The notes beneath the pieces were generated by a model. The model was not told the DNA's origin and did no database searches. It saw only the letters and a program-made list of their open reading frames with translations. Shown one piece after another: positions 20,297 through 42,196 of a DNA stretch of 64,000 bases. This DNA is from a bacterium (GTDB lineage Bacteria; Planctomycetota; UBA1135; UBA2386), in the NCBI GenBank assembly GCA_024743115.1, contig JANSXC010000005.1, positions 310,001-374,000 on the forward strand, given 5' to 3'. The position numbers were made by a program, and so were the translations under genes. The stretch's first letter is position 1. Every line of letters starts with the position of its first letter.

Positions 20297-20429
20297 ACAA
20301 CGCGCGTCTCCAGCAAGGTATCGCGCGACGGCCCTGTCTCAAGCGTCTCACCAGTCTCACGGCGGACGGGGTCAACACGACCGTTTCGGGGTCAGCCAAC
20401 CGTTATCCTTCGACGCGCATTGTCGACTC

Positions 20430-20874: not shown

Positions 20875-20963
20875 CCGTCTGGAGCTACTCGGCATTTCTT
20901 CGAGATTCCGTGCCCGAAACGCCCGGCTGCGCGAACCTGGGGCAACCCACACGGAGCCTCTGC

Positions 20964-24191: not shown

Positions 24192-24342
24192 CCTCACCAC
24201 TTCGCCACGTCGACGGACAAGCCGGGCGCGGCCAGCAGAAGCGGCTCACGCTCCGTGGCATGCCGCCGCAACCGCGAATCTCGAAGGCAATCGCGCCATC
24301 AGACGAATCCCGGACGACAACCCGCTCGACTCGCACTGAAAG

Positions 24343-24389
24343 TGGTCGGAGCGAGAGGATTTGAACCTCCGACCCCCTGCACCCCATGC
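24343..24389 (-). repeat. Left attachment site: perfect 47-bp copy of the tRNA-Pro 3' end
   Basis: Identical over all 47 bases to 42120-42166, which is the 3' part of the intact tRNA-Pro(GGG), from the anticodon loop to the encoded CCA. After base 24389 the match ends abruptly and no 5' tRNA half follows. This is the classic product of tyrosine-integrase insertion into a tRNA gene: one end keeps the whole tRNA and the other a 3' fragment. Confidence 0.9.
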
Positions 24390-25069
24390 TGACCCGGGCG
24401 CCTCGGTGGCCTCTCGCTCCATCCGGCTTCAGAACCGGAATCGATGGCAGAACGCGAGGTTACCGCCCCTCCCGCCGTCCGCAAGCTCCCTCACGTAGTC
24501 TCAACCAAGCTCACGAGTTCGCTGGCAGCGATGCGACAAAGTGGTAGTGAGTGGTAGTCGATGAGAACGCCTCGCTGCTGGCTCCGCCTGCCGCCTGTCG
24601 CCTATCCACTTGCGCCAGTACCACTGAACGTGCGGGGTCGAAAGGTCGGTGTCAGACTCGGACCCGATCGACCCGTTCACGGAATCGCTACGAACCCTGA
24701 ATCGCTAGCGACTCTGTCTCTTGACAAATGGTGGGGAGCCCTCAGGACGTGCCAGCCGGGGAAACGACTGTACGCATTCGGGCCCTTGCCCAGCGGGCTG
24801 GTACCGAAACGCGGCTCGGCCACGACGCCAAGTCGTGGCATGGTTCCCGAGCTGTACTCGCTCGCGAGCACCACTGAACTGCCTGGCACTGGAAGCCTGG
24901 CCTCGCGAAAAGTAGCCTCTACTTCGATCGAACCACTGAGTTGGTGGATGACGTTGCGTGAACAACGACACCGTCCACTAGCCCACGTCGATCAACGGCC
25001 CTCACTTGTCAGAGAACCGGGTTGGACAGACTCTCGTCGCAGAAGCATCACCCCTGAAGGAGGAATGAT
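24390..25069. other. Gene-free left end of the island
   Basis: 680 bp without a convincing gene; the open frames here are Arg/Pro/Ser-rich. A tandem 10-bp direct repeat (AGTGGTAGTG/AGTGGTAGTC, 24540-24559) could be an integrase arm-binding site. The right end must hold the promoter of the Trypco1 gene; a strong ribosome-binding site (AAGGAGG) lies 7 bases before its ATG. Confidence 0.45.
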
Positions 25070-25303
25070 ATGCGAAAGCTGGTTGAGTTCGAGATCGAGG
25101 GCGAATACTCCGTTCTCGTCGACGTGGAGATAGACGGCCCGGCGGGTACGGTGGAGATCGGCCGAGGGTCGCCGATCGAGCGTGCCGCCGATTCGTTCGA
25201 GTCCGCTCTCTCGCGCATGCGACCGATGGTCGGGAAAATAGTCGCGTCACTGCAGGACCTGGAGAGCCGGCCGACCGCGGTCGAGATCGAGTTCGGAGCT
25301 TAA
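25070..25303 (+). CDS. Trypco1-family (CU044_2847-like) protein, cut short by an in-frame TAA
   Basis: The 77-aa product begins MRKLVEFEIEGEYSVLVDVE and ends at VEIEFGA. The pattern of a beta hairpin, an acidic strand, then a helix (SFESALSRMRPMVGKIV) and VEIEFG matches the trypsin-co-occurring domain 1, known as a short protein encoded beside trypsin-like conflict ATPases. Normal members continue after EFG with another strand pair. Here that continuation exists in the same frame after a TAA (25301-25303). Ribosome-binding site AAGGAGG sits 7 bases upstream. The next gene is the trypsin-nSTAND protein, exactly the expected partner. Probably a regulator or activator of that protein; its mechanism is unknown. 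Confidence 0.75.
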   Translation: MRKLVEFEIEGEYSVLVDVEIDGPAGTVEIGRGSPIERAADSFESALSRMRPMVGKIVASLQDLESRPTAVEIEFGA

Positions 25304-25390
25304 CTCCGAGCGGACTGCAATCTCGTGCTCGCCAAGGCCGCGGGTGAAGGGCACATCAAGGTCGGGCTCACGTGGCAGCAGCCACAATAG
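25304..25390 (+). other. In-frame tail of the Trypco1 gene after the TAA
   Basis: Continues the frame of the preceding gene without a shift and encodes LRADCNLVLAKAAGEGHIKV then GLTWQQPQ, ending in TAG. This is the expected last part of a Trypco1 domain (Leu-x-Ala-x-x, then the GH/Lys-Val-x-Leu-Thr-Trp strand). It ends 10 bases before the ATG of the next gene, the spacing expected for an operon. So the intact gene was probably 25070-25390, and a Lys codon became TAA. Confidence 0.7.
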
Positions 25391-25400
25391 TGTCGCCTCC

Positions 25401-28400: not shown

Positions 28401-29828
28401 TTTTCCGGAGGCGGCGAGTACATTGCCACGGCATCCGAGGATCGCGCGGTCGTTGTCTGGGATTCGTCCGACAAGCGCGTGCGCCGCCGGCTCACCGATC
28501 ACGAGAGCGCCGTTCGGTGCGTCGCTTTCTCTGCCGATCGCCGCACGCTCATCAGTGGCACGGAAGACGGTGTCGTCAGAGTCTGGGGCTTCGCCGAGGA
28601 GGGCGCCATGGTACACCGCCTACGAGAGCCGGATCGACAGCGAGCCGTATTCGCGGTTCGCTACGCGCCGGACGATCGTTCGCTCTTGTTGGGCGGTGCC
28701 GAGTTGTCGCTCGTGGACTGCTCTACGGGCATGCCCCTGCGCCGCTTCCAAGTCAGTTCGTCAGTTGCTGCTCCGGACTCCATTCGAGATGCCGTTTGGA
28801 TATCCGGGAGCGAGTTCCTCACGGGAGGTCGTGATCCCTATCTTCGACTGTGGTCGGTCCGCGAGGTGAAGAGCATCGTCACCGTCGAGAGCGTAACCGA
28901 GGGTACGAGGCGTCGGATCAACGGCATCGCACGATCGATCGCCGGGGACAGCGTGTGCGTGGGTACTACCCAGAATGAGTTTCGGATCTACCAACTCGAC
29001 GCGCTCCGAGCCGGAGGTGACGTCGGCTCAATCGTGAGGCCGCACGACTCTTGGGTTCGCTGCGTGACCTACGGTCATGACGACGTTGGTCGACCTTTAC
29101 TCGTCGCGGGGGATTCGAAGGGCGCGTTGGTCGTTCGTAACGTCAGTTCGGGGTTGATCTGGACCGATCGCGTTCACGATCGAGGTGTGAACGCGGTGTT
29201 GTTCGATGGAGAGAAGTTCGTGAGCGCTTCGAGCGACGGCACCGTGAAGAAGTGGGCGTGGACCGGACAGCGCGCGGAACTCGTTGGGGAGTTCGACGGA
29301 AGCAACTCGTCGGTGTTGTGTGTGGCCCTGGCATTCGAGGGGCAGGTGCTCGTCACGGGCGGGAGGGACGGACGAGTGCGCCTCTGGGACTACGAGTCGT
29401 GCCGGCAGTTGTATGCGCTCGATGGGCACCGAGCGGCAGTGTTCTCGGTCGCCGTCGATTCTAGCGGTCTGAGGCTTGCCTCAGCGAGCAACGACGGCGC
29501 CGTTTACCAGTGGCATCTCGGCTGCGCCGAGGCGCTTTCCAGTGCGAGGCATCGATTGGGACCCGAGCAGTCGGACGACGCGGCGAACCTGTCGAGGGCG
29601 AGGTACTACTCGATGCTCGGTGGCCACGGGTTGGCGAAGGACGTTCTCCGAGAAGTCGGGCAAGGTGGAAGGGAGGTCGTGCTTGAGATGGTGAAGTGCG
29701 AACTCCGGCTTGGCAACAAGGACGCGGCGCGGACCCTACTCGAGACGATGCCACCCGATCCGAATGGAGATTCCGAAGTCGGATCCTACGTCGACCTGCT
29801 TGTCGATTCGCTCGCGGAGCCGAAGTAG
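25401..29828 (+). CDS. Trypsin-like protease - nSTAND NTPase - TM - WD40 conflict protein
   Basis: A 1475-aa protein. The N-terminal trypsin-like domain (about 15-215) has a complete triad: His47 in TCWHVV, Asp82/83 in EVDDWVALRL, and Ser163 in GLSGAPC. The STAND-type NTPase follows: FFGR near 249, Walker A GASGVGKSS (280-288), Walker B LIVLDQLEGW with Asp335, and RLAHDTLGPVV near 565-575 as in nSTAND1 proteins. A hydrophobic segment at about 647-668 precedes the WD40 repeats (about 720-1395), e.g. SHPVTALGFEPSGRFLVTGG followed by a matching repeat. Such proteins are predicted bacterial immunity/apoptosis-like sensors in which ligand binding to the repeats triggers the effector, here the protease. 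Gene order with Trypco1 and location in an island support this role. Confidence 0.9.
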   Translation: MTDSAAGPLPSPVQHAVAKIIGLLGRREVELGTGFLVSRDRVLTCWHVVGAVPEDAEIHVLLADGRVRQQASIDDRHRSEVDDWVALRLKDEVGLQPIQLAPLERSDSGRLWAFGYPSASSGASLTLPLRVDNPHQHLGSAPAMELFSDVVAAAGGLRAGGLSGAPCLALREQGVVVAVGLIRQMLSEDGALASGGKLFATPSWHLIEQVSDLASFDPCLGLPDPVGQELPDEPFRYFQRYSESDAPLFFGRCAEIREALSWIDRAENEDSIGDVLLVSGASGVGKSSFLRAGITSRARRRWAITLVDAVPGADLAKALDAKIPSGESQRLIVLDQLEGWIRSHSRDQREGFLAWLRSFDDIRADGQRTRSRLILSLRKEWYPEARDLLRRAGISWTELLLRPLDRRSIVEVVRGIANTASLRSKYRARIEPSLPEQIASDLLSDPELPVAPALQVLLAEMWRSASAAGGGRRLLTTEIYLDQRRIGFHPRAFARRQLKALEGVSLGLALDMLEFHVDREHHMSALIRSDDELTARYPECGRFLQQAREILSDRSLLAVTSSGTRLAHDTLGPVVVEAFDASMEDAQRACRAMEAAIDAQRHLSSMELEFVRSARQEGVRGLTEPEAELVADSEASERRQRSSQTLFRIAVTASVSLAIIALVFWRMMVLESERKRLVLGHGLLAEAEGLTAQGLTREALGRVDEAANALGRNDIRLRILRARIAQLSPPPMMELSAACGAVTDVRFLDGDRKAVSLHWRERAQGARGEGVLVLWDLVLGKKVRQQVVPCPAAPLSEPIPYDANSIAISKDGRELFYGGPAGTVHRFNVSDFSPAGDSLPLHDEVGGVAGLALSPDGRLLAIGGLTGRVVVADVETASISRRFTDQSLGSGASARAHQITAAKVDSHPVTALGFEPSGRFLVTGGHDGTIKIWGVGDGELESTFDNGEVPEEVLALDCSTSRVAWGSYDPHLREGALGTRGDGAAVVDASAHRGPIWSVAFSGGGEYIATASEDRAVVVWDSSDKRVRRRLTDHESAVRCVAFSADRRTLISGTEDGVVRVWGFAEEGAMVHRLREPDRQRAVFAVRYAPDDRSLLLGGAELSLVDCSTGMPLRRFQVSSSVAAPDSIRDAVWISGSEFLTGGRDPYLRLWSVREVKSIVTVESVTEGTRRRINGIARSIAGDSVCVGTTQNEFRIYQLDALRAGGDVGSIVRPHDSWVRCVTYGHDDVGRPLLVAGDSKGALVVRNVSSGLIWTDRVHDRGVNAVLFDGEKFVSASSDGTVKKWAWTGQRAELVGEFDGSNSSVLCVALAFEGQVLVTGGRDGRVRLWDYESCRQLYALDGHRAAVFSVAVDSSGLRLASASNDGAVYQWHLGCAEALSSARHRLGPEQSDDAANLSRARYYSMLGGHGLAKDVLREVGQGGREVVLEMVKCELRLGNKDAARTLLETMPPDPNGDSEVGSYVDLLVDSLAEPK

Positions 29829-31027
29829 GTCGTCGCCGAGTCGAGCTGTGCGGCGGGCCGCACACCCGGGATCGCGTCGCTCTTCCCCGACCAGAACAGC
29901 CGGCGTTTCATCGCGGCTTTGCAGTGCCAGTCAACCCACTGGTCCTTCGGGATGCCGTAGTTCATCGGCGTCGCCGGGCACCAGCTGCAGTAGCTCGCCA
30001 GTTCGTCGGGGCAGTCCGCACACTCGATCGGGCGTCGATACTGCGAAGTCACGTAGTCTTGGTAGTCGCTGTGTCCGACAAGGTCGACGAGGGAGCTTTC
30101 GAGCAGACTTCCGAACCGACGCCTGGAGTTCTGATCGCAACCCACGAGGTAGCCTTCGTGGTCGATCGTTAAGCTCGTCAGGCCCGCGGCGCAATCGATG
30201 CGGGAGAGCTCAACGACCTGGTCTCCGAGCGATTGGGCACGGGCTTCAACGATCTCGTCGGGGAACAGTTCCAGCGAGCGATTGTCGATGATCCCGTCAA
30301 CACTCGAGTATACGTCGGCTATGATCTGGAACGGCGCGCCATAGGAATCGGCCAACGCGCGGATGCCGGCCATTTCCGTCATCGACTCCCGAGACAGAGA
30401 TGCGGTCAGCTCCACGCGGGCTCCGGCATCGAGAAGACGGCGAATCGTCCGCTGCGCCTTCTCGAACACACCTCGGACGCCAGCCAGCTTGTCGTGAGCT
30501 TCGCTCGTCGCAGCGAGCAGTGAGATCGTGCACGTCGGCCGCGGTGACATTCCAGCCAGGACCTCGTAGGTACGATAGTCGTCCCACGCGGGCCCCGAGC
30601 CGTTCGTGAAGAAGTCGACGGAGAGTCCGAGCGCATCGAGCTCGCCCAGCAAGCCTGGCAAGTCGCGCCGAACAGACACGTCTCCGCCGTGCAACTGGAC
30701 GTGGAGAATCCCACCATTGCGGAGCCCCTGAAAGACGCGAATCAACTCGGGGGTCGTGAGCCCGCCCTTGTCCCAATCGGCGGCGACGGAGCAGAAGTAG
30801 CAGCGCTGGTTGCAAGCTCCCGTGACCAGCACTTTCGCCTTCAGGTAGCCGGAGGCGTTCTCCTGTTTGAGCAGGGCGGAGTAGTTGGTCAGCGATCTGC
30901 TGGCTGGTCCGCCAAACACGTGCCCGTTCTTAAGCACCGCGTGGGGCCCGCTGGCTCCGAGGACGAGCTCGAACTCTTCGTCAATCGGAATGCGCTCGTA
31001 CGAGCTGTCGCTAGACATTCTGGCCAT
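29786..31027 (-). CDS. Radical SAM/SPASM protein, candidate second peptide maturase
   Basis: A 413-aa radical SAM enzyme. The [4Fe-4S]-SAM motif CNQRCYFC is at residues 72-79. The C-terminal SPASM-type part has GYLVGCDQNSRRRFG, then CADCPDELASYCSWC and a last Cys in DWHCKAAM, giving enough Cys for auxiliary clusters. It starts inside the end of the upstream radical SAM gene (17-base overlap; the ATG at 31016-31018 is an alternative start) and so is translationally coupled to it. Its 3' end overlaps the convergent WD40 gene by 43 bp. With a small precursor-like gene at the head of the operon, the likely role is post-translational modification of that peptide. The reaction (for example thioether, cyclophane or epimerisation) is not predictable by eye. 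Confidence 0.8.
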   Translation of the reverse strand: MARMSSDSSYERIPIDEEFELVLGASGPHAVLKNGHVFGGPASRSLTNYSALLKQENASGYLKAKVLVTGACNQRCYFCSVAADWDKGGLTTPELIRVFQGLRNGGILHVQLHGGDVSVRRDLPGLLGELDALGLSVDFFTNGSGPAWDDYRTYEVLAGMSPRPTCTISLLAATSEAHDKLAGVRGVFEKAQRTIRRLLDAGARVELTASLSRESMTEMAGIRALADSYGAPFQIIADVYSSVDGIIDNRSLELFPDEIVEARAQSLGDQVVELSRIDCAAGLTSLTIDHEGYLVGCDQNSRRRFGSLLESSLVDLVGHSDYQDYVTSQYRRPIECADCPDELASYCSWCPATPMNYGIPKDQWVDWHCKAAMKRRLFWSGKSDAIPGVRPAAQLDSATTYFGSASESTSRST

Positions 31028-32333
31028 GGATGCTCTGCGTCAGGTCGCAGGTCCGGTCGTGCTTGCCGCGGGTGTGGCCGTGCTGCATATGCACCATCGC
31101 CGGACAGCGTGGGCACTTCTTCCGCAGGCCGCAAGACAGACAACCGGATGGTTCGGACTCGTGGATCGTTCGAGCGCGCCACTCTTGGAGTTCGCGGGTG
31201 TGTAAGATCGTGCTCAGATCGTCGTTCACGAAGCTCCCGATCGCCTTTTCACGGAAGAGTTCGCACGGAAACACGTCTCCCTTGCATCCTAGCCACAGCT
31301 TGCTTTGTGCTGCCGTGCACACGCTGCGCGCGCGACTGATGGCGTTGTCGTCGAGGAGCTGGCGGGATCGACTGCTGCGAACGGCCCGGTTCAACGGCCC
31401 TTCGGCGAGCGGGCCGCGAGCGCCCGTGTACGGGAAGAGCGTCGTCGAGAGCTTGTAGGGGATTCCGAGCTCGATGAGCTGCTCAACCATATCGTCGAGT
31501 GCATCGACGTTGTTATTGCGAAGAACGATGTTGGCACAGACGCGGATGCCAAGGTCGGAGAGCCTCTCGATGTTGCGAACGATCTCACGCCGCGCGCCGC
31601 GGCGGCCGACGATTGAGTCGAACACCGAATCGCTCGAGTGGTGATAGGACGTGTAGACCGCGAGGCGGGGCTCACCAGCCAGTGAGTCGATGTCCTTCGG
31701 CAAGCGAAGGAGGTTGCTTCGCAGCGTGATGGCCATGCCGGTCAACGTTGCGGCACGCACGAGGCCGGGTAGTTCGGGATACAGCGTCGGCTCGCCCCCC
31801 GTCAACGTGAGCTGAATGGCCCCAGCCTCCGCAGCACGCTGGACACCAAGGTGAAGGATCTCCGAGACTCCGCGGTCGTTCGGGAGCTTCTCGACGTAGC
31901 AGAAGTCGCACGACAGATTGCAGATCTGATTGAGTTCGAGATAGATCAGCCAGGGTTGGACGCTGCGCACGGCGGCATCCTGAAGCGTCCGAGTCGACCC
32001 TTCCGACTTGTAGACCTGCTCTAGATTGACGCCGGCTAGAGGTGGGCTGTCGATTCCGTTCCGCTGGCCCAGGAATACCGAGCCCAGCGCCGACCAGATC
32101 TCGGAGTCATCCTCTCGAATGGCACCATAGAGAGCGTCGATCGCGCCGCAATCGACCTCCCAGGCTCGTAGAGCGGCGGAGTAGTAGGGGTCGAGTTGAA
32201 CGATGAAGTTCCGGGATCCGACACGCCAGGGGAAGAGGCCCTGGCGTGCCCGCGTCGCGATGGACGAGTCCGCGGCTGCGTGCCGCGCGGTCGTCGCTTC
32301 GGGTTCCGGCTGAGCCGAGGGATCCGGTTTCAT
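31011..32333 (-). CDS. Radical SAM/SPASM protein, candidate first peptide maturase
   Basis: A 440-aa enzyme starting at ATG 32331-32333 (an upstream start at 32423 would overlap the peptide gene). Residues 30-95 (GLFPWRVGSRNFIVQLDPYY and on) could be a peptide-recognition domain. The radical SAM motif CNLSCDFC is at 138-145, followed by LTLTGGEPTLYPEL. The C-terminal SPASM region has GCKGDVFPCELF, CLSCGLRKKCPRC and a final Cys near TCDLTQ. It lies 50 bp downstream of the small peptide gene and overlaps the second radical SAM gene. Two different SPASM enzymes acting in sequence on one peptide is the simplest reading. Confidence 0.85.
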   Translation of the reverse strand: MKPDPSAQPEPEATTARHAAADSSIATRARQGLFPWRVGSRNFIVQLDPYYSAALRAWEVDCGAIDALYGAIREDDSEIWSALGSVFLGQRNGIDSPPLAGVNLEQVYKSEGSTRTLQDAAVRSVQPWLIYLELNQICNLSCDFCYVEKLPNDRGVSEILHLGVQRAAEAGAIQLTLTGGEPTLYPELPGLVRAATLTGMAITLRSNLLRLPKDIDSLAGEPRLAVYTSYHHSSDSVFDSIVGRRGARREIVRNIERLSDLGIRVCANIVLRNNNVDALDDMVEQLIELGIPYKLSTTLFPYTGARGPLAEGPLNRAVRSSRSRQLLDDNAISRARSVCTAAQSKLWLGCKGDVFPCELFREKAIGSFVNDDLSTILHTRELQEWRARTIHESEPSGCLSCGLRKKCPRCPAMVHMQHGHTRGKHDRTCDLTQSIHGQNV

Positions 32334-32383
32334 TAATGAAGCCTGCGCCGAGCGTGTTCGAGGAGTCACGTCTCGACTCGCGT

Positions 32384-32587
32384 CTAGCAATCGACTTGGC
32401 AGTGGAGCCCATCGCTCGTCCACCCGCCGGTCTCTTTCTTCATCGAGTCCGCCGTCACCTCCTTCTTCTTGGCCGCCAACAGGCGGGCCACGAGTTCCTT
32501 CTTCTCAGTCGCCGACGTGGAGGGATTCCTCAGCTCGCGGACGGTAGCGTCGGCGTGTCGTTGCAGCTCTTCTCGAGATTCGCTCAT
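32384..32587 (-). CDS. Candidate RiPP precursor peptide (67 aa)
   Basis: Begins MSESREELQRHADATVREL at the ATG 32585-32587 with a ribosome-binding site AAGGA nine bases upstream. The leader part is helical and charged (ATEKKELVARLLAAKKKEV). The C-terminal 20 residues change character, with GGW at 54-56, then TSDGLHCQVDC, including His62, Cys63 and Cys67 at the very end. This leader/core contrast, the small size and the position in front of two radical SAM/SPASM genes make it a likely modified-peptide precursor. It is not one of the named classes I can recognise; a KxxxW-like element is close but the spacing differs. An unrelated small protein remains possible. Confidence 0.65.
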   Translation of the reverse strand: MSESREELQRHADATVRELRNPSTSATEKKELVARLLAAKKKEVTADSMKKETGGWTSDGLHCQVDC

Positions 32588-32795
32588 CTTGTGGTTTCCT
32601 TTGAGGATCCGAGCCCGAGATCGCGCAAGCTCGTCCGGCATCTTCCCAGGCTCGGTTCGCAGCGGTTCAGTCTATTGCAGCCGCCACGGATGGTGCAAGT
32701 CTCTCCCGTAGCCCGGTGAGCCTCGGCACGCTAGCAGGCTGCGGCCTACTGCACCGCATGCTGACCGGGGTGGGCACAAGCACTCCTTCCGCCTT
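32588..32795. other. Promoter-bearing gap between peptide operon and integrase remnant
   Basis: About 200 bp upstream of the minus-strand peptide/radical SAM operon. It should hold that operon's promoter. I see no further gene. Confidence 0.4.
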
Positions 32796-32917
32796 GTGGA
32801 GGCACAGTGGAGAAAGCGCAGGCGATCGCAGCACACTCGTCTCCCAGAACAACAAAGCTCTACGATCGGACAACCGACCAGATCACGCTCGACGAGATCG
32901 AACGGATCCGCATCTAG
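32796..32917 (+). pseudogene. C-terminal remnant of a tyrosine integrase
   Basis: A frame ending at TAG 32915-32917 encodes GGTVEKAQAIAAHSSPRTT then KLYDRTTDQITLDEIERIRI. This is the conserved end of a phage/ICE-type tyrosine recombinase: the His in AAHSS and the catalytic Tyr in KLYDR are both present. Upstream of about 32796 the similarity stops and the rest of the enzyme is gone. It lies 20 bp before hsdR, so the restriction module probably arrived with, or inserted into, another integrative element. Confidence 0.75.
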
Positions 32918-32936
32918 ACGACCATTCTGATTTGCC

Positions 32937-35324
32937 ATGCCGAACGAAGCTGACACCTGCCGTCGCTACGTCGTTCCGAAGCTCCAAGCTGCTGGATGGG
33001 ACAACGACCCCTACCGTCTCAATGAACAGGTGTCGTTCACCGATGGGCGGATCGTCGTCACTGGGCGCCAAGGTCGTCGCCGCCCGGGAAAAAGGGCGGA
33101 CTACGTCTTGCGCTACCGCCCTCACGTCACGCTTGCGGTGGTAGAAGCCAAGGCCGACTACCGCACGCCTTCAGATGGCCTCCAGCAAGCCAAGGAGTAT
33201 GCAGAGATTCTGGGGTTGAAGTTCGCTTACTCGACGAACGGACACGGGATCGTCGAGTTTGACTTCCTGACAGGACTCGAATCCGAAGTCGACTCGTTCC
33301 CTGGCCCTGAAGACCTCTGGCGACGCCTTCGCAACTCTCAGAACGTCGAAGAGCACAAGCAAACGCACCTCGTCACCCCGACGTACAACCTTAGCGGCAA
33401 GACTACCCGCTACTACCAAGAGATCGCGATCAACCGCACCATCGAAGCGATCCTGCAAGGCAGGAAACGAATCCTGCTCACGATGGCGACGGGCACTGGG
33501 AAGACGTTCGTAGCATTTCAGATTTGCTGGAAGCTCTGGTCATCTCGATGGAATCGAGGCGGAGAACATCGCCGACCTCGAATCCTGTTTCTTGCAGACA
33601 GAAACGTCCTCGTAGACGACCCGATGGCGAAGACCTTCACGCCCTTCGGTGACGCCCGCTGGAAGATCGAGGGAGGAGTGGCGACCAAGAGCCGTCAGAT
33701 GTACTTCGCGATCTACCAGTCGATCGCGCGGGACGAGAACCGACCGGGACTCTATCGAGAGTATGCCCCCGACTACTTCGACCTCATCGTCATCGACGAG
33801 TGCCACCGAGGTAGCGCGCGAGATGACAGCAACTGGAGGGAGATCCTCGATTACTTCGAGCCAGCCTTCCAAGTCGGCATGACGGCAACTCCTCGACGCC
33901 ATGACAACGTCGACACCTACCGATACTTCGGCGACGCAATCTACACCTACAGCCTCCGGCAGGGCATTGAGGATGGCTTCTTGGCCCCGTACCGAGTCCA
34001 CAGGGTCGTGACCAGTTGGGACGCAGCCGGCTGGCGTCCGACTCAGGGCGAGCTTGACCGACACGGGCGCGAGATCCCTGATGAGGAGTACAGAACGGCT
34101 GACTTCGAGCGAAGGGTTGCGTTGCGGGCACGCACTGAAGCCGTCGCGAAGCACTTGAGCAACTACCTGCAGTCCACAGACCCCTTCGCAAAGACGATCG
34201 TGTTCTGCGTGGATCAAGAGCACGCCGACGAGATGCGCCGAGCACTCAACAATCTGAACTCTGAGTTGGTCCGGCAACACCCAGACTACGTCTGCCGCGT
34301 GACTTCCGCCGAGGGAGAGATCGGCCGGGGACACCTCAGCAACTTCCAGGATCTCGAGCGCCAAACACCAGTGATCTTGACGTCATCCCAGATGCTCACG
34401 ACAGGCGTCGACGCCCCAACTGTAAAGAACGTGGTACTCGTTCGGCTCGTCAACTCCATGACAGAGTTCAAGCAGATCATCGGACGTGGCACTCGAGTGC
34501 GCGATGACTACGGAAAGCTCTTCTTCAGCATCCTCGACTACACCGGATCAGCAACCCGACTCTTCGCCGACCCAGAGTTTGACGGAAACCCGGTTCTTGA
34601 GACTCAGCTGACGATCGATGACGAGGGCAACCCGGTGACAGATGAGGATGTACTCGAATCCAACCTCGAGCAGGAAGGCGAAGGCACGCCCTACCCATTC
34701 GCCACTTCCGAAGGAGCTAGTCACGTAGCGGAGAGCCCCGGCGGAGAGCCCCGCAAGTTCTACTTCGACGGTGGCGCCGTCGAGATCGCAGCTCACCTCG
34801 TCTACGAACTCGACCCCGACAGTGGGAAGCAGCTCCGTGTCATCCAATTCACAGACTACACCGCCGAGAAAGTGCGCACGCTGTATTCAAACGCAGCCCA
34901 GCTTCAGCGCGACTGGGCGATTCCAGATCAACGCGCAGAGATCATCGAGCGGCTAGCGGAACGCGGAATCGACTTCGATGAGTTGGCCAACGCGGCCAAC
35001 CAACCCGACGCCGATCCGTTCGACCTGCTCTGCCACATAGCGTTCGAGTCTCCGCTGCGCACTCGACGCGAACGCGCACAACGACTACGAGCCGAAGAAC
35101 GCGAGTTCTTCCAGAAGTTTGAACCCGAAGCTCAGCAAGTCCTGGTACAGCTACTAGACAAGTACGCTGAGCATGGAACTGCCCAGTTTCTGATACCAGA
35201 CGTTCTAGAGCTCCCCCCGATCAACCAGCACGGGAACATCCTTGAAATCGCGCGACTGTTTGGGGGCGAGGAGCAACTCGCGGAAGCAGTCGCTGACCTC
35301 CAGACGCTGCTTTACGTAGCCTAA
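32937..35324 (+). CDS. hsdR: Type I restriction endonuclease R subunit (HsdR, EcoEI-like)
   Basis: A 795-aa motor-nuclease subunit. The N-terminal nuclease domain has the PD-(D/E)xK pattern (ADYVLRY, then VVEAKADY). The SF2 translocase has Walker A MATGTGKTF (from residue 183), a DEAH-box variant DECH (from 287), motif III MTATPRR and motif VI region IIGRGTRVRDD. The C-terminal part is of the EcoEI type, shorter than in EcoR124. It forms a complex with the next gene's product, cuts unmodified DNA after translocation and depends on ATP. The gap to hsdM is 8 bp. Visible base composition is lower in GC than the flanking chromosome, in keeping with transfer. Confidence 0.93.
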   Translation: MPNEADTCRRYVVPKLQAAGWDNDPYRLNEQVSFTDGRIVVTGRQGRRRPGKRADYVLRYRPHVTLAVVEAKADYRTPSDGLQQAKEYAEILGLKFAYSTNGHGIVEFDFLTGLESEVDSFPGPEDLWRRLRNSQNVEEHKQTHLVTPTYNLSGKTTRYYQEIAINRTIEAILQGRKRILLTMATGTGKTFVAFQICWKLWSSRWNRGGEHRRPRILFLADRNVLVDDPMAKTFTPFGDARWKIEGGVATKSRQMYFAIYQSIARDENRPGLYREYAPDYFDLIVIDECHRGSARDDSNWREILDYFEPAFQVGMTATPRRHDNVDTYRYFGDAIYTYSLRQGIEDGFLAPYRVHRVVTSWDAAGWRPTQGELDRHGREIPDEEYRTADFERRVALRARTEAVAKHLSNYLQSTDPFAKTIVFCVDQEHADEMRRALNNLNSELVRQHPDYVCRVTSAEGEIGRGHLSNFQDLERQTPVILTSSQMLTTGVDAPTVKNVVLVRLVNSMTEFKQIIGRGTRVRDDYGKLFFSILDYTGSATRLFADPEFDGNPVLETQLTIDDEGNPVTDEDVLESNLEQEGEGTPYPFATSEGASHVAESPGGEPRKFYFDGGAVEIAAHLVYELDPDSGKQLRVIQFTDYTAEKVRTLYSNAAQLQRDWAIPDQRAEIIERLAERGIDFDELANAANQPDADPFDLLCHIAFESPLRTRRERAQRLRAEEREFFQKFEPEAQQVLVQLLDKYAEHGTAQFLIPDVLELPPINQHGNILEIARLFGGEEQLAEAVADLQTLLYVA

Positions 35325-35332
35325 GAACCAGC

Positions 35333-37510
35333 ATGGCGAAGAAGCCAAAGAAGAAGAAATCGCCAAGCGAGCTCACAACAGCCGAGCGCCTCAGCGCTGT
35401 CGTGAAGACCTGCCGAAAGGTGATGCGCAAGGACAAGGGGCTGTCGACAGACCTAGATCGACTCCCACTCTTGACCTGGATCATGTTCCTCAAGTTCCTC
35501 GACGACCTTGAGCAGATTGAGGAATCCCGTGCCAAGCTGAGCCGCAAGAAGCACAGACCAATGCTTCTTGCCCCCTATCGTTGGCGAGATTGGGCCGCAC
35601 AGGACGACGGAATCACCGGGCCTGAGTTGCTCGCTTTCATCAACCACGAGGAAGCGAACTTGCCCGATGGCTCTCGAGGCCCAGGGCTGTTCGCATACTT
35701 GCGCGCCCTGGAGGCACATGATGGCGCCACGGATCGCAGACAAGTCATCGCATCCGTGTTCTCCCGAATCTCCTGCCGGGTGGAATCCGGATACCTGCTG
35801 CGCGATGTCATCAACTCAGTAAACACGATCCACTTCCTCGAGCAGGAGGAGCTCTTCGTCCTCGGCCATCTCTACGAGTCGATGATCAAGGAGATGCGAG
35901 ACGCAGCAGGCGAGAACGGCGAGTTCTACACGCCGCGCCCGGTTGTGCGATTCATGATCGACGCGTTGGATCCTAGGCTCGGCGAGACCGTCATGGATCC
36001 CGCGTGCGGGACCGGCGGCTTCCTGGTCGACGCCTTCGCTCACCTTGAGCAGCAAGCTCAGACGGTCGAGGATCGGAAGGTTCTACAGACGCAGGCGGTC
36101 GTTGGGGGCGAAGCCAAGCCTCTCCCTTACCTCATGTGCCAGATGAATCTTCTTCTCCACGGAGTCGAGGCACCGCGAATCGACCCTGAAAACAGTCTCC
36201 GACACAATCTGAGCGAGATCGGGGACCGTGAGCGCGTCGACATCGTGTTGACAAATCCTCCATTCGGAGGAGAGGAGGAGAAGGGAATACTCAACAACTT
36301 CCCGGCAGACCTTCAGACAGCGGAGACCACACTGCTGTTCCTCCAACTCATCATGCGGAGGCTTCGCCGCCCGAGTTCAGGATCCCCCGGTCGAGCTGGC
36401 GTCATCGTCCCAAATACGACTCTCTATGCTGACGGGGTCTGCGCGCGCGTGAAGGCAGCGCTCTTGTCCGAGTTCAACCTACACACCGTCGTCAGACTTC
36501 CAGAAGGGGTCTTCGAGCCATACACACCAATCCCTACAAACATTCTCTTCTTCGATCGCAGCCACCCGACGGAGCATGTCTGGTTCTATGAAGTCAAACC
36601 TGCTGATGGGCGCAAGAAGTACACGAAGACGACTCCGCTGAAGTACGAGGAGCTCCAGCCGGCTCTCGAGTGGTACAACAGCGACAGAACTGCCGAGAAT
36701 GAGAACGCTTGGAGGGTCAGCGCGTCAGACCTATTGGCCCAGGGTTGCAACCTAGATATCCGAAATCCGAATCGGGCAGACCAGTTTGCACTTCCAGCAC
36801 CGAGCGTCGTCACAGCACGCATGCTCGACCAAGCAGCCCAACAGATGGCGGCGCTTCAACAACTACAGCGCGAAGCAGACACCCTTGCGGGGCTCGACAT
36901 TCAGGAGACCTGGGATCGTGTCGAGCTTTCTGAGCTGCTGACCCACGTCGAAGACGTTCACGAGGTAGTTGCATCCGAGTCCTATCCGAATCTCGGGATT
37001 TTCAGCTTCGGCAAGGGGCTCTTCTCTAAGCCCCCGATCGACGGCCTCACAACCAGCGCCACTCGACTCTTCAGAGTCCACAAGGATCAGTTCATCTACA
37101 GTCGACTCTTCGCCTTCGAGGGCTCGTATGGACTGGTCACCGAGGAGTTCGACAAGTGCTTCGTCTCGAACGAATACCCGACCTTCGATTGCGACCAAAG
37201 CCGCCTCCTCCCGAGCTTCCTCTACGCATACTTCCGATCGCCTCGCGTCTGGGACGAGATCTCCGAGAAGAGCAAGGGACTCGGAAACCGTCGTCAGCGT
37301 GTACATCCTGAGACGATCCTTGAGCACCGGATTCCACTACCGCCAATCGAGATCCAGGATCTCGTTTGCCGCGTCATGTCGGCAACCGAGGAACTCGCAG
37401 CACGGAGAGAATCGCTCTCCGAGCATTCTGCTGAACTCCTTCCGAGCTTCCTCGATGCCGCCCTCGGCGTGGAACTCGTGCAACGCGTGACGGAACTCGC
37501 ACGAGAGTAG
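35333..37510 (+). CDS. hsdM: Type I DNA methyltransferase fused to a single specificity (HsdS-like) domain
   Basis: A 725-aa protein. The HsdM part has an N-terminal helical domain, then GEFYTPRPVVRFMID, the SAM motif DPACGTGGFL and the catalytic motif NPPF (from residue 308), so it should make N6-methyladenine. From about residue 520 the sequence resembles one HsdS target-recognition half: RVELSELLTHVEDV, then FVSNEYPTF, then RQRVHPETILEHRIPLPPIE and a final helix. No separate hsdS gene exists here. A single recognition domain suggests that two M-S chains dimerise to read a palindromic or split site. Convergent with the DUF2726 gene, 5 bp apart. Confidence 0.9.
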   Translation: MAKKPKKKKSPSELTTAERLSAVVKTCRKVMRKDKGLSTDLDRLPLLTWIMFLKFLDDLEQIEESRAKLSRKKHRPMLLAPYRWRDWAAQDDGITGPELLAFINHEEANLPDGSRGPGLFAYLRALEAHDGATDRRQVIASVFSRISCRVESGYLLRDVINSVNTIHFLEQEELFVLGHLYESMIKEMRDAAGENGEFYTPRPVVRFMIDALDPRLGETVMDPACGTGGFLVDAFAHLEQQAQTVEDRKVLQTQAVVGGEAKPLPYLMCQMNLLLHGVEAPRIDPENSLRHNLSEIGDRERVDIVLTNPPFGGEEEKGILNNFPADLQTAETTLLFLQLIMRRLRRPSSGSPGRAGVIVPNTTLYADGVCARVKAALLSEFNLHTVVRLPEGVFEPYTPIPTNILFFDRSHPTEHVWFYEVKPADGRKKYTKTTPLKYEELQPALEWYNSDRTAENENAWRVSASDLLAQGCNLDIRNPNRADQFALPAPSVVTARMLDQAAQQMAALQQLQREADTLAGLDIQETWDRVELSELLTHVEDVHEVVASESYPNLGIFSFGKGLFSKPPIDGLTTSATRLFRVHKDQFIYSRLFAFEGSYGLVTEEFDKCFVSNEYPTFDCDQSRLLPSFLYAYFRSPRVWDEISEKSKGLGNRRQRVHPETILEHRIPLPPIEIQDLVCRVMSATEELAARRESLSEHSAELLPSFLDAALGVELVQRVTELARE

Positions 37511-37515
37511 GCTCG

Positions 37516-38064
37516 TCAGGCGCCCGCCCTCAGAAGCGCCTCTCGGAGCACCGCTCGGTCGTAGCGACGCTGAACTTTGACTCGAAGAAGGGGGAGTCCG
37601 GCCGAGCTGCATGCTCGATCGAGGAACTCATCTCGGTTCTTCCTGTGTGGCAGCGCATGCGAACAATCATCCAGCTCGATTGCCGCCAGCGCATGACTTG
37701 TTCCAGGTCGCACCACCACGAAGTCGAACTCCTTCTGCGCGATAGGCGCACCGTAGCCAGCAGCCCAGTCGTCTCGCCGACAGCCAATGATCGCAGCCAC
37801 TCGAATCTTCGGCCACACATCCCACTCACCTTCGAGCGCAGCGACGAGCTCACGATAGAAGCGGAATTCGCCATCAGAGCAGAGGAACCGCCGCCGGAAG
37901 TATGGCAGCTCACCAGAACTGGGACGGAACGTCGAGGTGCGTATCTCGCCTCGCGTCGCGCGCCGGTAGTGCAGGTCACGCTTCAGACGAGCAATCCGGC
38001 CACCGCCCTGGAATGCGAGCGTCATCGCTCCGAGTAGAAGGACGAGGTGCAGCCCTTCGATCAT
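37516..38064 (-). CDS. DUF2726 protein, predicted nuclease fold, with N-terminal membrane segment
   Basis: A 182-aa protein. An N-terminal hydrophobic stretch (GLHLVLLLGAMTLAF) could anchor it. The rest fits DUF2726: SDGEFRFYRELVAAL, VWPKIRVAAIIG, KEFDFVVVRPG, AAIELDDCSH, the Arg/Asp helix and GLPLLRVKV. The family resembles PD-(D/E)xK and very-short-patch repair nucleases; candidate acidic residues are in EFDF and ELDD. Its ATG overlaps the stop of the 222-aa gene upstream by ATGA, so both are made from one transcript that would also contain the hairpin-rich region. Substrate unknown. Confidence 0.8.
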   Translation of the reverse strand: MIEGLHLVLLLGAMTLAFQGGGRIARLKRDLHYRRATRGEIRTSTFRPSSGELPYFRRRFLCSDGEFRFYRELVAALEGEWDVWPKIRVAAIIGCRRDDWAAGYGAPIAQKEFDFVVVRPGTSHALAAIELDDCSHALPHRKNRDEFLDRACSSAGLPLLRVKVQRRYDRAVLREALLRAGA

Positions 38065-38729
38065 GCCGCCACCTTCACAACCGATTCGGTGGGATCCGAA
38101 TCCACGAACGGCTTCACTAGGCTACGTCGAAGCCTGAGAGCCTGCACCGGGACTTGCTCAAGGCCGGCAACCTTCCGAGCGCGGTTCACGGCGCGCAGCA
38201 AGTTCAGAAGCTGCCGACGGACCGGCGCGTAGGGCTCGAATGGGATTCCCGCGAGGATCTCGGACATCTGTCCGACGTCGCGCTTCGTAGCGACCTCGAG
38301 CAGGAACGCCTTCAGGCTCAGATACTCATCCGGATGGATGCGCACGGACACGTGCCACTTGCGATCCACGCCCCGGTGCCAGCCGATGCTGTAGCCAGCG
38401 AACGCAATCGGAGACCTCCGCACGTTGCGAATCTGCGACTCGTCGTGCTCGCCGAAGAACGGTTGCGGGCCATCGGTCGCAACCAGCACGAAGAAGTCGC
38501 CGTAGCGCAGGTAGTGGGCACTCCCCTGCCCGTTCTTCTTCCGCCGCGACCTCGCCCAGCGCGGCCGGTCGGCTTCGAAGCGGTCGATCATCTTCGCGTC
38601 GACGGCCCTCGCGTCCTTCGACTCGGGGATTCGCCCGGTCACGTAGTTGTGGTAGCCGTGAACCAGGTAAGCGCACGCAAGCTGCTGCACGAACCCCGTC
38701 ACCGACTTTGCTTCGCATCTGTATTGCAC
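38061..38729 (-). CDS. 222-aa protein of unknown function, encoded downstream of a hairpin-rich region
   Basis: Start is GTG 38727-38729 with a perfect ribosome-binding site AGGAGG five bases upstream. The product begins MQYRCEAKSVTGFVQQLACA and has YVTGRIPESKD, HYLRYGDFFVLVATDG, PIAFAGYSIGW and VRRQLLNLLRAVNRARK. I believe that similar proteins occur in many copies in planctomycete genomes, from memory and unchecked. No HUH, RuvC, HNH or reverse-transcriptase motif is visible. Mixed alpha/beta with many aromatic and basic residues; RNA or DNA binding would fit. Its leader carries two perfect hairpins and beyond them 1.4 kb of further hairpins (38741-40220). Confidence 0.75.
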   Translation of the reverse strand: MQYRCEAKSVTGFVQQLACAYLVHGYHNYVTGRIPESKDARAVDAKMIDRFEADRPRWARSRRKKNGQGSAHYLRYGDFFVLVATDGPQPFFGEHDESQIRNVRRSPIAFAGYSIGWHRGVDRKWHVSVRIHPDEYLSLKAFLLEVATKRDVGQMSEILAGIPFEPYAPVRRQLLNLLRAVNRARKVAGLEQVPVQALRLRRSLVKPFVDSDPTESVVKVAA

Positions 38730-38740
38730 TGGTCCCTCCT

Positions 38741-38802
38741 ATCCTCTCGGGACCGCGATCCGCGACCACCAGAGGATGCGAAGTGTTCTCGGCACACTTC
38801 GC
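38741..38802 (-). promoter_or_regulatory. Double-hairpin leader directly upstream of the 222-aa gene
   Basis: Reading the minus strand: a 9-bp perfect stem GCGAAGTGT/ACACTTCGC (38778-38802), immediately followed by a second stem ATCCTCT/AGAGGAT (38741-38777), whose last base touches the ribosome-binding site (38735-38740). Back-to-back stems ending at the ribosome-binding site could control translation or be the 3' end of the large RNA upstream. Confidence 0.6.
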
Positions 38803-40220
38803 TAAAGCCGCATGGACCTTCGTTTCATCGAACCTCGGTCCAGTCGCCTGTCATCCTCGACGGCCATCCTTGTTCGGGGCCGTCGCCAACCTCCTTCCCT
38901 TGCGGGAACTCGTCCTCGTTCGCGTGGCTTCGTTTCTCCGGCCTACTCGTCCGGCAAAACCACGTTCCAAAACACACAGCGCCAATCCATAGGAGTTGGC
39001 ACTTTCAAACCGCCGACAGGCGCTAGACGAACCTCTAGCGTCTGTCGTCATCCCATTGCGAGCAGAGCGCTTCCCCCCGGAAGCGGCTCTGCTCACCACA
39101 GGCCGTGCTTCCCAGTACTCGCCGTTCGGTTGAGCTACTGAGTGCTCGTCGCAGCTTTCGTTCTCGTTCTCGAACCCGGCACCATCCGCTGGTTCACGAA
39201 CACGGGTCACGACTGCCTTGCCGTGCAGGTCCACAGCACGAAGCTGAACCTGTGCAAGCCTTCGCTCGCATCACCGCTCGGACTTCCGTCCGAGTTCTAC
39301 TTGCTGCCCGCTCCTAGACTCCTGCGTTTGAATCACCTGGCTAGCAGACCAGGCACCGCGGTCATCACCCGCGGAAACAGGAGTCTGTCCCCGATTAGAA
39401 ATCGATGTCGGTGCATGAGTCACGTTGCTGAGAGGGCGTTACCCTCAGGGGTCGAGCCGTAGCCACCTCCCTCCCGGGTGGTGGAAGTTCTCGAGAAGCC
39501 GCGAACAGAATCGTCCTCGGCATCTCGGTTTCGAGGGGCAGAACGCAGAAGCTCCTCCTCTACCCATCGACTGGACCCTTTCACAGTTCGGCTCCGTCTC
39601 TCACGCGCCTTACCGGCAAGCCCTCGCGGGCCTTTCATGGTTGAGCTATTCACCGCCTGGATTTCCCAGGTCGCCGGAGTTGCTTGACTCCGATCCGTCT
39701 ACCTCGCGGCAGCGGAGCTCCCCACGCCGGCTGGCGTTGAACGCACCAAGTGACCGCGGCCACTTGCTGTCGAACCCCACCAGGCGGATTCGGAAGATGC
39801 ACCTCGTCGCACGGCTCGTTGCCGCGCAGGCGCTTCACGTCTTCCACACCACTTCAGCGATTCCGACTCCGAGCATTCCAGCTCGGAGGGTTTCTCGGTC
39901 GCCCTTGCCCCTCGATATCCGATGGACTTCAGGCTTCATGGGATCGAACCAAGGGATTGGTCCTTCGCGTTCTCGCTAAGAGAATATCGGGTCGGGAGCA
40001 CAACGCTCCCAGGAACCACCCGAGAGCGACAATGCTTGCTCCTTCGCAGAAGAGACAAGCGAGAACATGAGCGAAGGGATTGCTCCTTGGAGCCTCCCTC
40101 GCACCGGACAAGCACCTCTCGATGCATCCGGCGCTACGAGCGACCAACTCGAGGGTGATGAAACCCTCCCCTACGGCGGCTGGTGAGGCCGCGTTGACGG
40201 GTGTCGGTCTGCTCAACCGA
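38741..40220 (-). ncRNA. Candidate large structured RNA (about 1.5 kb)
   Basis: No protein gene fits here, yet perfect hairpins occur about every 50-70 bases. Examples (arms): 38858-38865/38878-38885; 39014-39027/39034-39047 (14 pairs); 39060-39074/39079-39094 (15 pairs); 39277-39283/39288-39294; 39316-39324/39378-39386 enclosing two further stems; 39675-39680/39687-39692; 39747-39752/39761-39766; 39867-39874/39881-39888; 39994-39999/40005-40010; 40041-40047/40071-40077; 40151-40156/40163-40168. This density is like GOLLD- or ROOL-type large ornate RNAs, though I cannot assign it to either. Minus orientation is preferred because the 222-aa gene lies downstream on that strand. Group II intron is unlikely: no reverse transcriptase. 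Confidence 0.55.
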
Positions 40221-40277
40221 ACGACGCCAGGCCGTGTTTAGCTGGCTCTGACGACAGCGGCTTCCGCCGCGACGCGA

Positions 40278-40306
40278 GAGTACCATCGATCGGAGATCGT
40301 ACTCAA
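40278..40306 (-). promoter_or_regulatory. Candidate minus-strand promoter with dyad, upstream of the structured RNA
   Basis: On the minus strand, TTGAGT (40301-40306) and TACTCT (40077+200, i.e. 40277-40282) are 18 bases apart and resemble -35/-10 elements. The spacer is a dyad: GAGTAC (40278-40283) mirrors GTACTC (40299-40304), and CGATC mirrors GATCG around GGA inside it. It could start the large RNA, be an operator, or act as terminator for the DUF1580 gene. Confidence 0.35.
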
Positions 40307-40331
40307 CTCGGGCGGTCTCTCATCACTGCGG

Positions 40332-40733
40332 TCACTCAGACGCCGGGTCGGGCGGTGCAGCTGCGGCGAAGCCGTAGGCGCGAAGTTCATCGAGGCTTCG
40401 ATGGAGATCACGGTTCGACTTCTTCGGCGATCGTCGCGTCGAGACTCGCGAGGGAACCACCTGAGCCATGGCCGTCGTGGCCGCAACGAACCACTCGAGC
40501 GAAGCCTCGGTCGAGAACCAGCGCTGACCAATCCGCAGCGCCGGCAACCGGATCCCATGGAAGCCGCGCGACGCCCACCGGTAGAGCGAAGCCCGGTCCA
40601 TCGATCGTCCACCGGGCCGAAAGCGATGCCGAAGGTCTTCCAGGCTCAGCAGATTCTCGTCATCCAGACGAACCGCTGGAGGTAGCGGCAGGTCGTAGTC
40701 CGGATCGGTCTTCGTTCTGGATGAGCCGCTCAT
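40332..40733 (-). CDS. DUF1580 / excisionase-like small DNA-binding protein
   Basis: A 133-aa protein from ATG 40731-40733. The core matches DUF1580 and helix-turn-helix excisionases: SLEDLRHRFRPGGRSMDRAS, then LYRWASRGFHGIRLPALRIG and QRWFSTEASLEWFV, the winged helix-turn-helix with the GxRx-wing. Such proteins in planctomycetes accompany tyrosine integrases and probably direct excision. It is the gene immediately downstream of the integrase on the same strand, 48 bp away. The C-terminal tail is basic. Confidence 0.8.
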   Translation of the reverse strand: MSGSSRTKTDPDYDLPLPPAVRLDDENLLSLEDLRHRFRPGGRSMDRASLYRWASRGFHGIRLPALRIGQRWFSTEASLEWFVAATTAMAQVVPSRVSTRRSPKKSNRDLHRSLDELRAYGFAAAAPPDPASE

Positions 40734-40781
40734 GGTCACCCCGCCGTTCGACAGGATCAGTGAGCGGCTTCGCTAATCCGG

Positions 40782-42011
40782 CTATCCGTGTCGTCGCGCG
40801 TATTGGATGGCCGCCGCTGGCAACACCTCTGCGTAGCGCTGCGTCGTTTTGGCGTCCGTGTGCCCCCCGAGGACCTGAGCGGCATCGAGTCCAGCTCGCC
40901 GCCTCGCCTCCGTCAGCGCGGTGTGACGAAGCCTGTTCGGGCCAAACGGCTCTACTCCGGCCGCACGACACGCATGGGCAATCGCCTTGCGATAGGAGGA
41001 GGAGTCGTAGCGCTCCGAGAGCGTCACCATCGGCTTCTGCCGGCGCTCCTCGTCTCGGCTGCGATTCGGGCGCCCCCGGTCGCCGTAACGCGCCATGGCC
41101 TGCCGCCGCTGCTCCGCATGGCGTTCTTCTTCTGCTCGCCCCGGACTGAAGACGAACGCATCTGGAGCGTCCGGGCGGAGCAAGGGCGCGAGGACTCTCT
41201 GCCCAGCCGGGCCAATCGGAATCGCGCGCTCGACACCATGAGCCTCGGTCTTGTGGCTCGATGGCTTGTAGATCCAGACATCGCCCGTTTGGTCCACGTC
41301 CGCAGTCCGCAGAATGCAGACCTCCCCCGGTCGCATCCCTGTCGAGAGCTGCAACCGGATCATCGCGGCGATCGTCGGCGGAGCGGCATCCGCGGCCTTC
41401 TCGGCCACGGTGCTGTCGACCGGCCGCACCGGCGCGGTCTCCGCGAGAGTCGAGGTCTCGCCTCGGCGGATTCCCGCCACGCACGCCAGCCCGTGAGCAA
41501 CAGTCGGCGGCACCAGCTCCCGTTCCACCCCCCAACGAAACAGCCGACGGACGCGAGACACCTGGCCGTTCACCGTGACTCTCGAACGAGCTCGACCGCT
41601 CGGCCCTTCCGCCATGGCCTCGCGTAGAGCCACGAGCTTGCGCGGACCGAACTCGACAACCGGAACCGAGGCATAGAGAGCCAGCAGCTCATCGAGAGCA
41701 CCACGGACGCGCTCCCGCTCGCTGGTGGGCTCGCCGTTCTTCGTGTACCGGCCCGAGTGCTCGATGAACCGCCAGTAGCGGACCACGAGGCCAGCGACCG
41801 TCAGGTCGTCAACGACCTCGTCGCGCCGAGACCCGTTCGCCGAGGTGTTGGTGCCCGACGCGTGCTCGGCAACGAGCCGCCGGTACTGCTCGACCGCGTC
41901 GTCGGTGCCCCACTTGCCGAAGTAGACGTGGCGCCCGTCGACGCGTGCGTAGGCCCGGTCGGTCGCCTTGTGGCGACAGAGCTTGGGGATGGGATTCCTC
42001 TTCCGAGGCAT
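40782..42011 (-). CDS. int: Tyrosine integrase of the island
   Basis: A 409-aa site-specific recombinase starting MPRKRNPIPKLCRHKATDRA. It has an N-terminal arm-binding-like segment, a core-binding domain and a catalytic domain. Catalytic residues: Arg in STGMRPGEVC, His-x-x-Arg region as NRLRHTAL, His in LGGHTDAKTT and the nucleophile Tyr in QRYAE. The gene ends are intact. It lies 109 bp from the tRNA-Pro gene whose 3' end is duplicated at both island ends, so it almost certainly catalyses integration there. Confidence 0.93.
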   Translation of the reverse strand: MPRKRNPIPKLCRHKATDRAYARVDGRHVYFGKWGTDDAVEQYRRLVAEHASGTNTSANGSRRDEVVDDLTVAGLVVRYWRFIEHSGRYTKNGEPTSERERVRGALDELLALYASVPVVEFGPRKLVALREAMAEGPSGRARSRVTVNGQVSRVRRLFRWGVERELVPPTVAHGLACVAGIRRGETSTLAETAPVRPVDSTVAEKAADAAPPTIAAMIRLQLSTGMRPGEVCILRTADVDQTGDVWIYKPSSHKTEAHGVERAIPIGPAGQRVLAPLLRPDAPDAFVFSPGRAEEERHAEQRRQAMARYGDRGRPNRSRDEERRQKPMVTLSERYDSSSYRKAIAHACRAAGVEPFGPNRLRHTALTEARRRAGLDAAQVLGGHTDAKTTQRYAEVLPAAAIQYARRHG

Positions 42012-42119
42012 GACCGCTCCTTCGTTTGAGGGTCATCTGACCCTCGAAAAAGCGAGTGCCACGCACTCCTCGGAACCGAGAGAATCGCTGTAAACCCAGC
42101 GGCGGCTCGAAGATGGAAA

Positions 42120-42166
42120 TGGTCGGAGCGAGAGGATTTGAACCTCCGACCCCCTGCACCCCATGC
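42120..42166 (-). repeat. Right attachment site within tRNA-Pro
   Basis: The 47 bases shared perfectly with 24343-24389, comprising the CCA end to the anticodon loop of the intact tRNA. Crossing over probably takes place within this segment. Confidence 0.9.
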
Positions 42167-42196
42167 AGGTGCGCTACCAGGCTGCGCTACGCTCCG
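42120..42196 (-). tRNA. tRNA-Pro (anticodon GGG)
   Basis: Reading the minus strand: acceptor CGGAGCG pairs with CGCTCCG, D-arm GCGCAGCCTGGTAGCGC, anticodon stem CCTGC/GCAGG with loop ATGGGGT (anticodon GGG), T-arm GGAGGTTCAAATCCTCT, discriminator A and an encoded CCA. Length 77. It decodes CCC/CCU proline codons. It is intact and forms the right boundary of the island. Confidence 0.95.

Follow-up and report, generated by a model that had tools for sequence, protein, structure and literature searches.

A hairpin-packed stretch on the minus strand, running from about 40210 to 38965, is almost certainly a circularly permuted (CP) group II ribozyme; it precedes an acpG-like gene, and both are carried on an integrative island. 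Positions are those of the window, by which we mean the whole stretch of 64,000 nucleotides that was analysed. On the minus strand the parts of the RNA come in the order 5' stems, D5, D6, 3' splice site, 33-nt spacer, 5' splice site, D1, D2, D3 and D4. The assigned features are as follows, with numbers marked RNA counted along the RNA itself.

40142..40210, minus: 5' structured element, a 7-bp outer stem around two hairpins, one with the loop CUCACCA; P1/P2-like, typical of CP group II, with covarying pairs
40101..40134, minus: domain 5 (D5), 34 nt, with a CGC triad, a GAGA tetraloop and a 2-nt UU bulge
39940..40098, minus: domain 6 (D6); helices RNA 37-42/189-195 and 45-53/178-186, paired in 96-98% of cells
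39944, minus: predicted branch point, a bulged A in D6, 7 nt from the 3' splice site; A191 of the RNA, invariant in the alignment
39937..39938, minus: predicted 3' splice site, between ...UUCGAUCCCAU and GAAG; motif UUCKAYCCNAU kept in 31 loci, also in Thermus pTT8 and in pPNAP05
39905..39937, minus: spacer between the reversed splice sites, predicted 33-nt circle GAAGCCTGAAGTCCATCGGATATCGAGGGGCAA, placed by the splice-site motifs
39910-39905, minus: IBS1, the 3' end of the spacer
39904..39905, minus: predicted 5' splice site, between ...GGGGCAA and GGGCGACC; 31 of 32 loci share GGGCGAY (as GGACGAC in two of them), as do Thermus and pPNAP05
39390..39904, minus: domain 1 (D1), conserved core AGCUCAACCAUGAAAGG, from helices and covariation
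39541..39546, minus: EBS1 (GCGUUC), pairing with IBS1 (4 of 6 pairs in the window copy); covaries with the spacer 3' end across 31 loci
39316..39386, minus: domain 2 (D2); helices RNA 749-758/810-819, 761-765/775-779 and 781-787/793-800
39310..39315, minus: J2/3 purine-rich joiner, consensus GGGGGAG, several G and A positions invariant
39148..39309, minus: domain 3 (D3), with conserved strands AGUAGAA and ACGAAAG (E-loop-like)
39055..39099, minus: domain 4 (D4, assigned by position), a 19-bp hairpin, RNA 1036-1080; 90% of cells paired, two-sided changes in 17 of 19 pairs
38741..39054, minus: 3' tail, conserved to about 38965 (UAUGGAUUGG, GAAnG), then a poorly conserved leader
38061..38729, minus: acpG-like gene, 222 aa (P0001); profile matches to the Thermus TTHC007/AcpG family and the pPNAP05 CP-adjacent protein, controls negative
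40332..40739, minus: xis-like HTH gene directly upstream of the RNA; weak DUF1580 and HTH_17 matches
40782..42011, minus: tyrosine integrase (PF00589, E 3.5e-17)
24343..42166, no strand: integrative island, 17.8 kb, bounded by exact 47-bp direct copies of the tRNA-Pro 3' end
42120-42196: tRNA-Pro

Fold, domain order and predicted splice sites of the RNA

An earlier note on this DNA had placed a large, ornate minus-strand RNA at 38741-40220, its stems filling a gene-free region and leading into the ribosome-binding site of a 222-aa protein. This description stood in all but its limits. The region is gene-poor and carries minus-strand stems throughout, and minus-strand positions 40134 to 39140 (995 nt) have a folding energy of -471.9 kcal/mol, compared with -416.0 +/- 9.7 for 20 dinucleotide shuffles (z -5.75). 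The coordinates were nearly right, but the conserved RNA starts at about 40210, its conserved part ends at about 38965, and the roughly 235 nt nearest the acpG-like gene form a poorly conserved leader. That gene starts with GTG at 38729, with the Shine-Dalgarno sequence AGGAGG 5 nt before it.

The RNA is kept before homologues of the 222-aa protein, and the covariation that the earlier note proposed to look for in such regions is strong. In an alignment of 29 homologous regions there are 35 helices with at least four pairs, and standard pairs occupy 90.4% of 6,909 pair cells, compared with 70.9% (maximum 71.8%) when the letters of the 3' side were shuffled and 37-41% when partners were slid. 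Two-sided changes were found in 178 of the 241 pairs, compared with 133 (maximum 144) after shuffling. Because the consensus structure was derived from the same 29 regions on which it was scored, these shuffled and slid controls, together with the independent tests, outweigh the raw 90.4%.

The Rfam scan, another check proposed earlier, returned RF00029 (group II D5-D6) at 40136-40074 on the minus strand with 40.6 bits (gathering score 40), and this was the sole relevant match. In the window copy, D5 pairs as 9 + 5 pairs; its triad is CGC, that of most relatives is AGC, and the bulge is UU. A strict descriptor of the 34-nt D5 found 32 loci in which D5 lies on the same strand as a homologue of the 222-aa protein and 785-1622 nt upstream of it, and gave 0 matches in 1.92 Mb of unrelated control DNA, which included viral contigs from a DNA pattern scan that proved too loose. 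Each of the 14 acpG loci that lack the strict D5 has at least one other CP motif upstream.

The splice-site motifs repeat the permuted order. The 3' splice site (directly after UUCUAUCCGAU) stands ahead of the 5' splice site (directly before GGGCGAY) in 31 of the 32 loci, at distances of 12-100 nt, and of 33 nt in the window. The boundary motifs also occur in Thermus pTT8 and its relatives and in Polaromonas pPNAP05. Applied to pPNAP05, the same rule gives 32 nt, which equals the published circle size; a 32-nt circle was predicted for that plasmid and is consistent with the products observed (PMC8637638).

EBS1 was located by a blind scan of all alignment columns against the spacer end, which gave one clear winner, corresponding to 39546-39541 in the window. 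For the variable half of the EBS1-IBS1 pairing, 64 of 93 pairs form, as against 35.6 +/- 4.6 in shuffled sets, and none of 20,000 shuffles scored as high. Despite this covariation at the level of the family, only four of the six pairs form in the window copy. A D1 segment that matches the spacer end perfectly over 10 bp (UCGAGGGGCA/UGCCCCUCGA) was rejected as EBS1: across the family it forms one side of a D1 hairpin and fails to vary with the spacer, and the site that does covary stands just before it. Likewise, GUGCGACGAGG near 39820 was rejected as the 5' end of D1 in favour of the conserved GGGCGACC at 39904. The loop CUCACCA of the covarying 5' element is conserved, and its pairing to the D2 loop (P2-D2) shows no convincing covariation.

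The D1 core on its own has a covariation score of 0.520, compared with 0.164 when shuffled. A model of D1 gave no significant match on Thermus and an E value of only 0.05-0.12 on pPNAP05; the link to the tested CP members therefore rests on domain order, motifs and AcpG.

By analogy with five tested members of the class, an RNA with its parts in this rotated order would be expected to release a small circle of RNA rather than splice itself out. The transcript would fold with D5-D6 upstream of D1, and the 2'-OH of the bulged A at 39944 would attack the 5' splice site (39905/39904), which EBS1-IBS1 positions. The spacer's 3' end, once freed, would then attack the 3' splice site (39938/39937). 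This is predicted to yield a 33-nt circular RNA together with a branched, T-shaped molecule that would retain D1-D4 and the acpG message on its 3' arm. On the same analogy, the window RNA is probably transcribed and active.

The AcpG-like gene, its linkage to the RNA and its neighbourhoods

P0001 gave no significant match in Pfam, NCBIfam, PHROGs or PADLOC, none in the PDB, and no similarity to TTHC007 by BLAST. Profile comparison with hhalign, however, connects its family to the Thermus TTHC007 family (probability 95.8, E 8e-9, 173 columns) and to the CP-adjacent protein of pPNAP05, the gene of which is divergent from the CP RNA (probability 96.4, E 1.3e-9), with two unrelated control proteins at 0.5 and 0.1. 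The 222-aa protein is therefore AcpG-like by profile. An AlphaFold model of the AcpG-like protein from 2 sequences had a pLDDT of 41, and no AcpG was found in viral contigs.

In 170 genomes of one planctomycete family, the RNA was found in 32 and the protein in 32, with both in 28 (Fisher p 1.3e-23, a value that overstates independence since the genomes are related). The RNA and acpG lie on one strand in 37 of 37 pairs, with 746-1671 nt from the D1 core to the protein match, and the genomes with the protein alone have it at contig ends or as gene fragments. In the loci examined the RNA always comes before acpG, a strict RNA-then-acpG order. AcpG may bind the RNA or help it.

Several copies can occur together. 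A Calothrix plasmid (L006:648-3132) has two tandem CP RNAs with identical D5, of which only the second stands directly before acpG. In planctomycete genome G484, about eight matches to the CP RNA and seven to acpG are spread over different contigs, and one acpG is broken by a stop. The genome of the window itself has a second CP RNA and AcpG-like gene (G000:C8:22400-24465; L060, L104), with a RepA-type gene about 13 kb away. The D5 of this second copy (GCGCGTGCTACGTCGAGAGGCGTTCGGTACGTGC) was missed by Rfam and was found by our descriptor and by model R1 (117 bits). Rfam detects only D5-D6 of the CP class, and it misses the Thermus members as well.

The pair lies on an island delimited by an exact repeat: the 3' 47 bp of tRNA-Pro (42120-42166) recur at 24343-24389. 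Within the island are the integrase, the xis-like HTH gene, a DUF2726 gene that overlaps the acpG-like gene, a type I restriction pair and an nSTAND-WD40 protein. The earlier note's RNA-protein system on a mobile island is thus borne out by the att repeat, the integrase and the xis-like gene, but not its claim of novelty, CP group II RNAs with acpG having been described in 2021. The DUF2726 and type I restriction genes were rejected as parts of the system because these neighbours are not conserved (one exception, L115, with HsdR/HsdM).

Other features of this DNA are recorded here in their own right. The type I methyltransferase at 35333-37510 has C-terminal similarity to specificity subunits (an HsdM-HsdS fusion) and stands beside an EcoAI-type HsdR. 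The 1494-aa protein at 25344-29828 combines an nSTAND1 NTPase with WD40 repeats and has N-terminal PADLOC matches to LmuA and Avs1b; it is possibly a defence gene. Two adjacent radical SAM/SPASM proteins at 29786-32423 have weak matches to the PADLOC viperin model, which probably reflect only the common radical SAM core. A third, imperfect copy of the tRNA-Pro end (33/35) at 20201-20235 suggests a second, smaller element (20201-24343) adjoining the island, with a 1116-aa kinase-FGE-sulfatase-like protein.

Across 28 neighbourhoods (27 others and the window), the recurrent genes are AcpG, ParA (15), ParB (13) and a RepA-like initiator (11). A neighbour set of ParA, ParB and RepA is typical of plasmids. 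The repA-like gene lies upstream on the same strand in the loci with readable orientation. In ten genomes (~77 Mb) there are 48 ParB genes, or about 0.6/Mb, yet by a count from coordinates about half of the acpG loci have a ParB gene no more than 10 kb away. Some repA/par modules are on chromosome-size contigs (G105, G436) and are for that reason taken to be integrated or island-borne.

These neighbours hint at a role that is compatible with the CP ribozyme reading. We tentatively suggest that the ribozyme and AcpG help to maintain replicating or integrating elements, or to control expression in them, by acting on read-through repA or int/xis transcripts. In favour are the upstream repA-like gene, the ParA and ParB counts (15 and 13 of 28) and the concentration of ParB near acpG, and in addition the CP RNA of pPNAP05 lies near the plasmid origin and the Thermus CP RNAs adjoin plasmid genes. 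Against it, pTT8 replicates with most of its CP RNA deleted (PMC8637638), although a chromosomal copy could complement the loss; because most of this RNA is deletable without effect on replication, an essential role in replication itself is disfavoured. The RNA-AcpG pair may thus serve the maintenance of the element that carries it, and the upkeep of plasmids and integrating elements is the most economical reading of the neighbourhoods, although we hold it with less than even confidence.

Other readings of the region

Among the other readings, a very unlikely one is that of a new ornate RNA class or a riboswitch-like leader that controls the downstream gene and resembles group II only superficially. 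In the examined loci the RNA does form the 5' leader of acpG, and its 3' part would stay on the message after the predicted reaction, but D5, D6, branch point, splice sites, EBS1 and J2/3 are all present in a functional arrangement. Cis-control of acpG could exist in addition to the CP ribozyme. OLE, GOLLD, ROOL and HEARO are alike in size and structural density, and none of them has an Rfam match in the window.

It is very unlikely that the region is an ordinary group II intron that decayed or was rearranged by chance at one locus and is now a functionless remnant. D5 and D6 are genuinely those of group II, and no reverse transcriptase was found among the neighbouring proteins scanned, as a remnant would have it. 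The earlier note had held that both a reverse transcriptase and intron signs were lacking; the former is correct for the proteins scanned, but group II D5, D6, branch A, splice sites, EBS1, a J2/3-like joiner and D3 are there. The permuted order, however, is found again in dozens of loci, where compensatory changes accompany conserved splice sites, and the permuted RNA always precedes the same protein, so that a chance event is already refuted. Nor is this a canonical intron, in which D1-D4 would have to precede D5-D6; the xis-like and integrase genes occupy that side. The canonical order from D1 to D6 with splice sites at the outer ends is replaced by the permuted one, D4 holds no reverse transcriptase, and no conserved ORF was found within D1-D4.

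It is equally improbable that the region works not as RNA but as DNA hairpins that serve as an origin or as a site of attachment or transfer. A replication or integration module does surround the region in many relatives, but the consensus energy is -480 on the minus strand and -385 on the plus strand (-161 +/- 5 in column-shuffled alignments), a strand-specific signal, and G-U pairs and RNA-type motifs likewise speak for RNA. A guide or scaffold RNA for the nuclease-like DUF2726 protein, whose gene the earlier note had named beside that of the 222-aa protein, can practically be dismissed: the DUF2726 gene overlaps acpG in the window, but no DUF2726 homologue was found near any of the 28 other CP RNA/acpG loci searched.

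Relation to known CP group II ribozymes

Roth et al. (2021, iScience; PMC8637638) described CP group II ribozymes and the acpG gene linked to them, so that the class and the protein are already known and the kind is not new. The window RNA agrees with that class in its D5-D6-D1-D2-D3-D4 order, reversed splice sites, short spacer, GGGCGAY 5' boundary and bulged A in D6, as well as in its extra 5' stems, the lack of an internal ORF and the linked gene of the AcpG family; frequent plasmid residence is also common to both. The published class has an AGC triad in D5, a length of about 900 nt and a variable orientation of RNA and acpG (PMC8637638), whereas the present members are about 1.25-1.4 kb long, have a CGC or AGC triad with a base-paired first position, and keep the RNA and acpG adjacent on the same strand in the loci examined. 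Their AcpG is too divergent from the published AcpG for BLAST, and their hosts are planctomycete-like, with cyanobacterial plasmids also represented, neither of which is named in the main text of PMC8637638. For the window itself, the protein's relatives and matches at the level of the phylum point to a probable planctomycete host.

Compared with canonical group II introns (RF00029), the RNA shares D5, D6, the EBS1-IBS1 pairing, J2/3, E-loop-like D3 motifs and a branch point 7 nt from the 3' splice site. It differs in its permuted order and in having no intron-encoded reverse transcriptase, and its predicted products are a circle and a branched RNA instead of ligated exons and a lariat.

What is new are the planctomycete and cyanobacterial members, the strict RNA-then-acpG order and the linkage to repA/parAB or integrase/xis genes, with the proviso that Data S1 of PMC8637638 may already list some of the sequences. 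Later work extending the class was not found in the open-access literature. The CP class thus extends to planctomycetes and cyanobacteria, with larger RNAs. As to the roles of CP group II ribozymes and AcpG, the neighbourhoods narrow the candidates to functions of the carrier element; the plasmid replication and partition neighbours, or integrase and xis in the window, offer a hint to the job of the pair and name genomes in which it may be tested.
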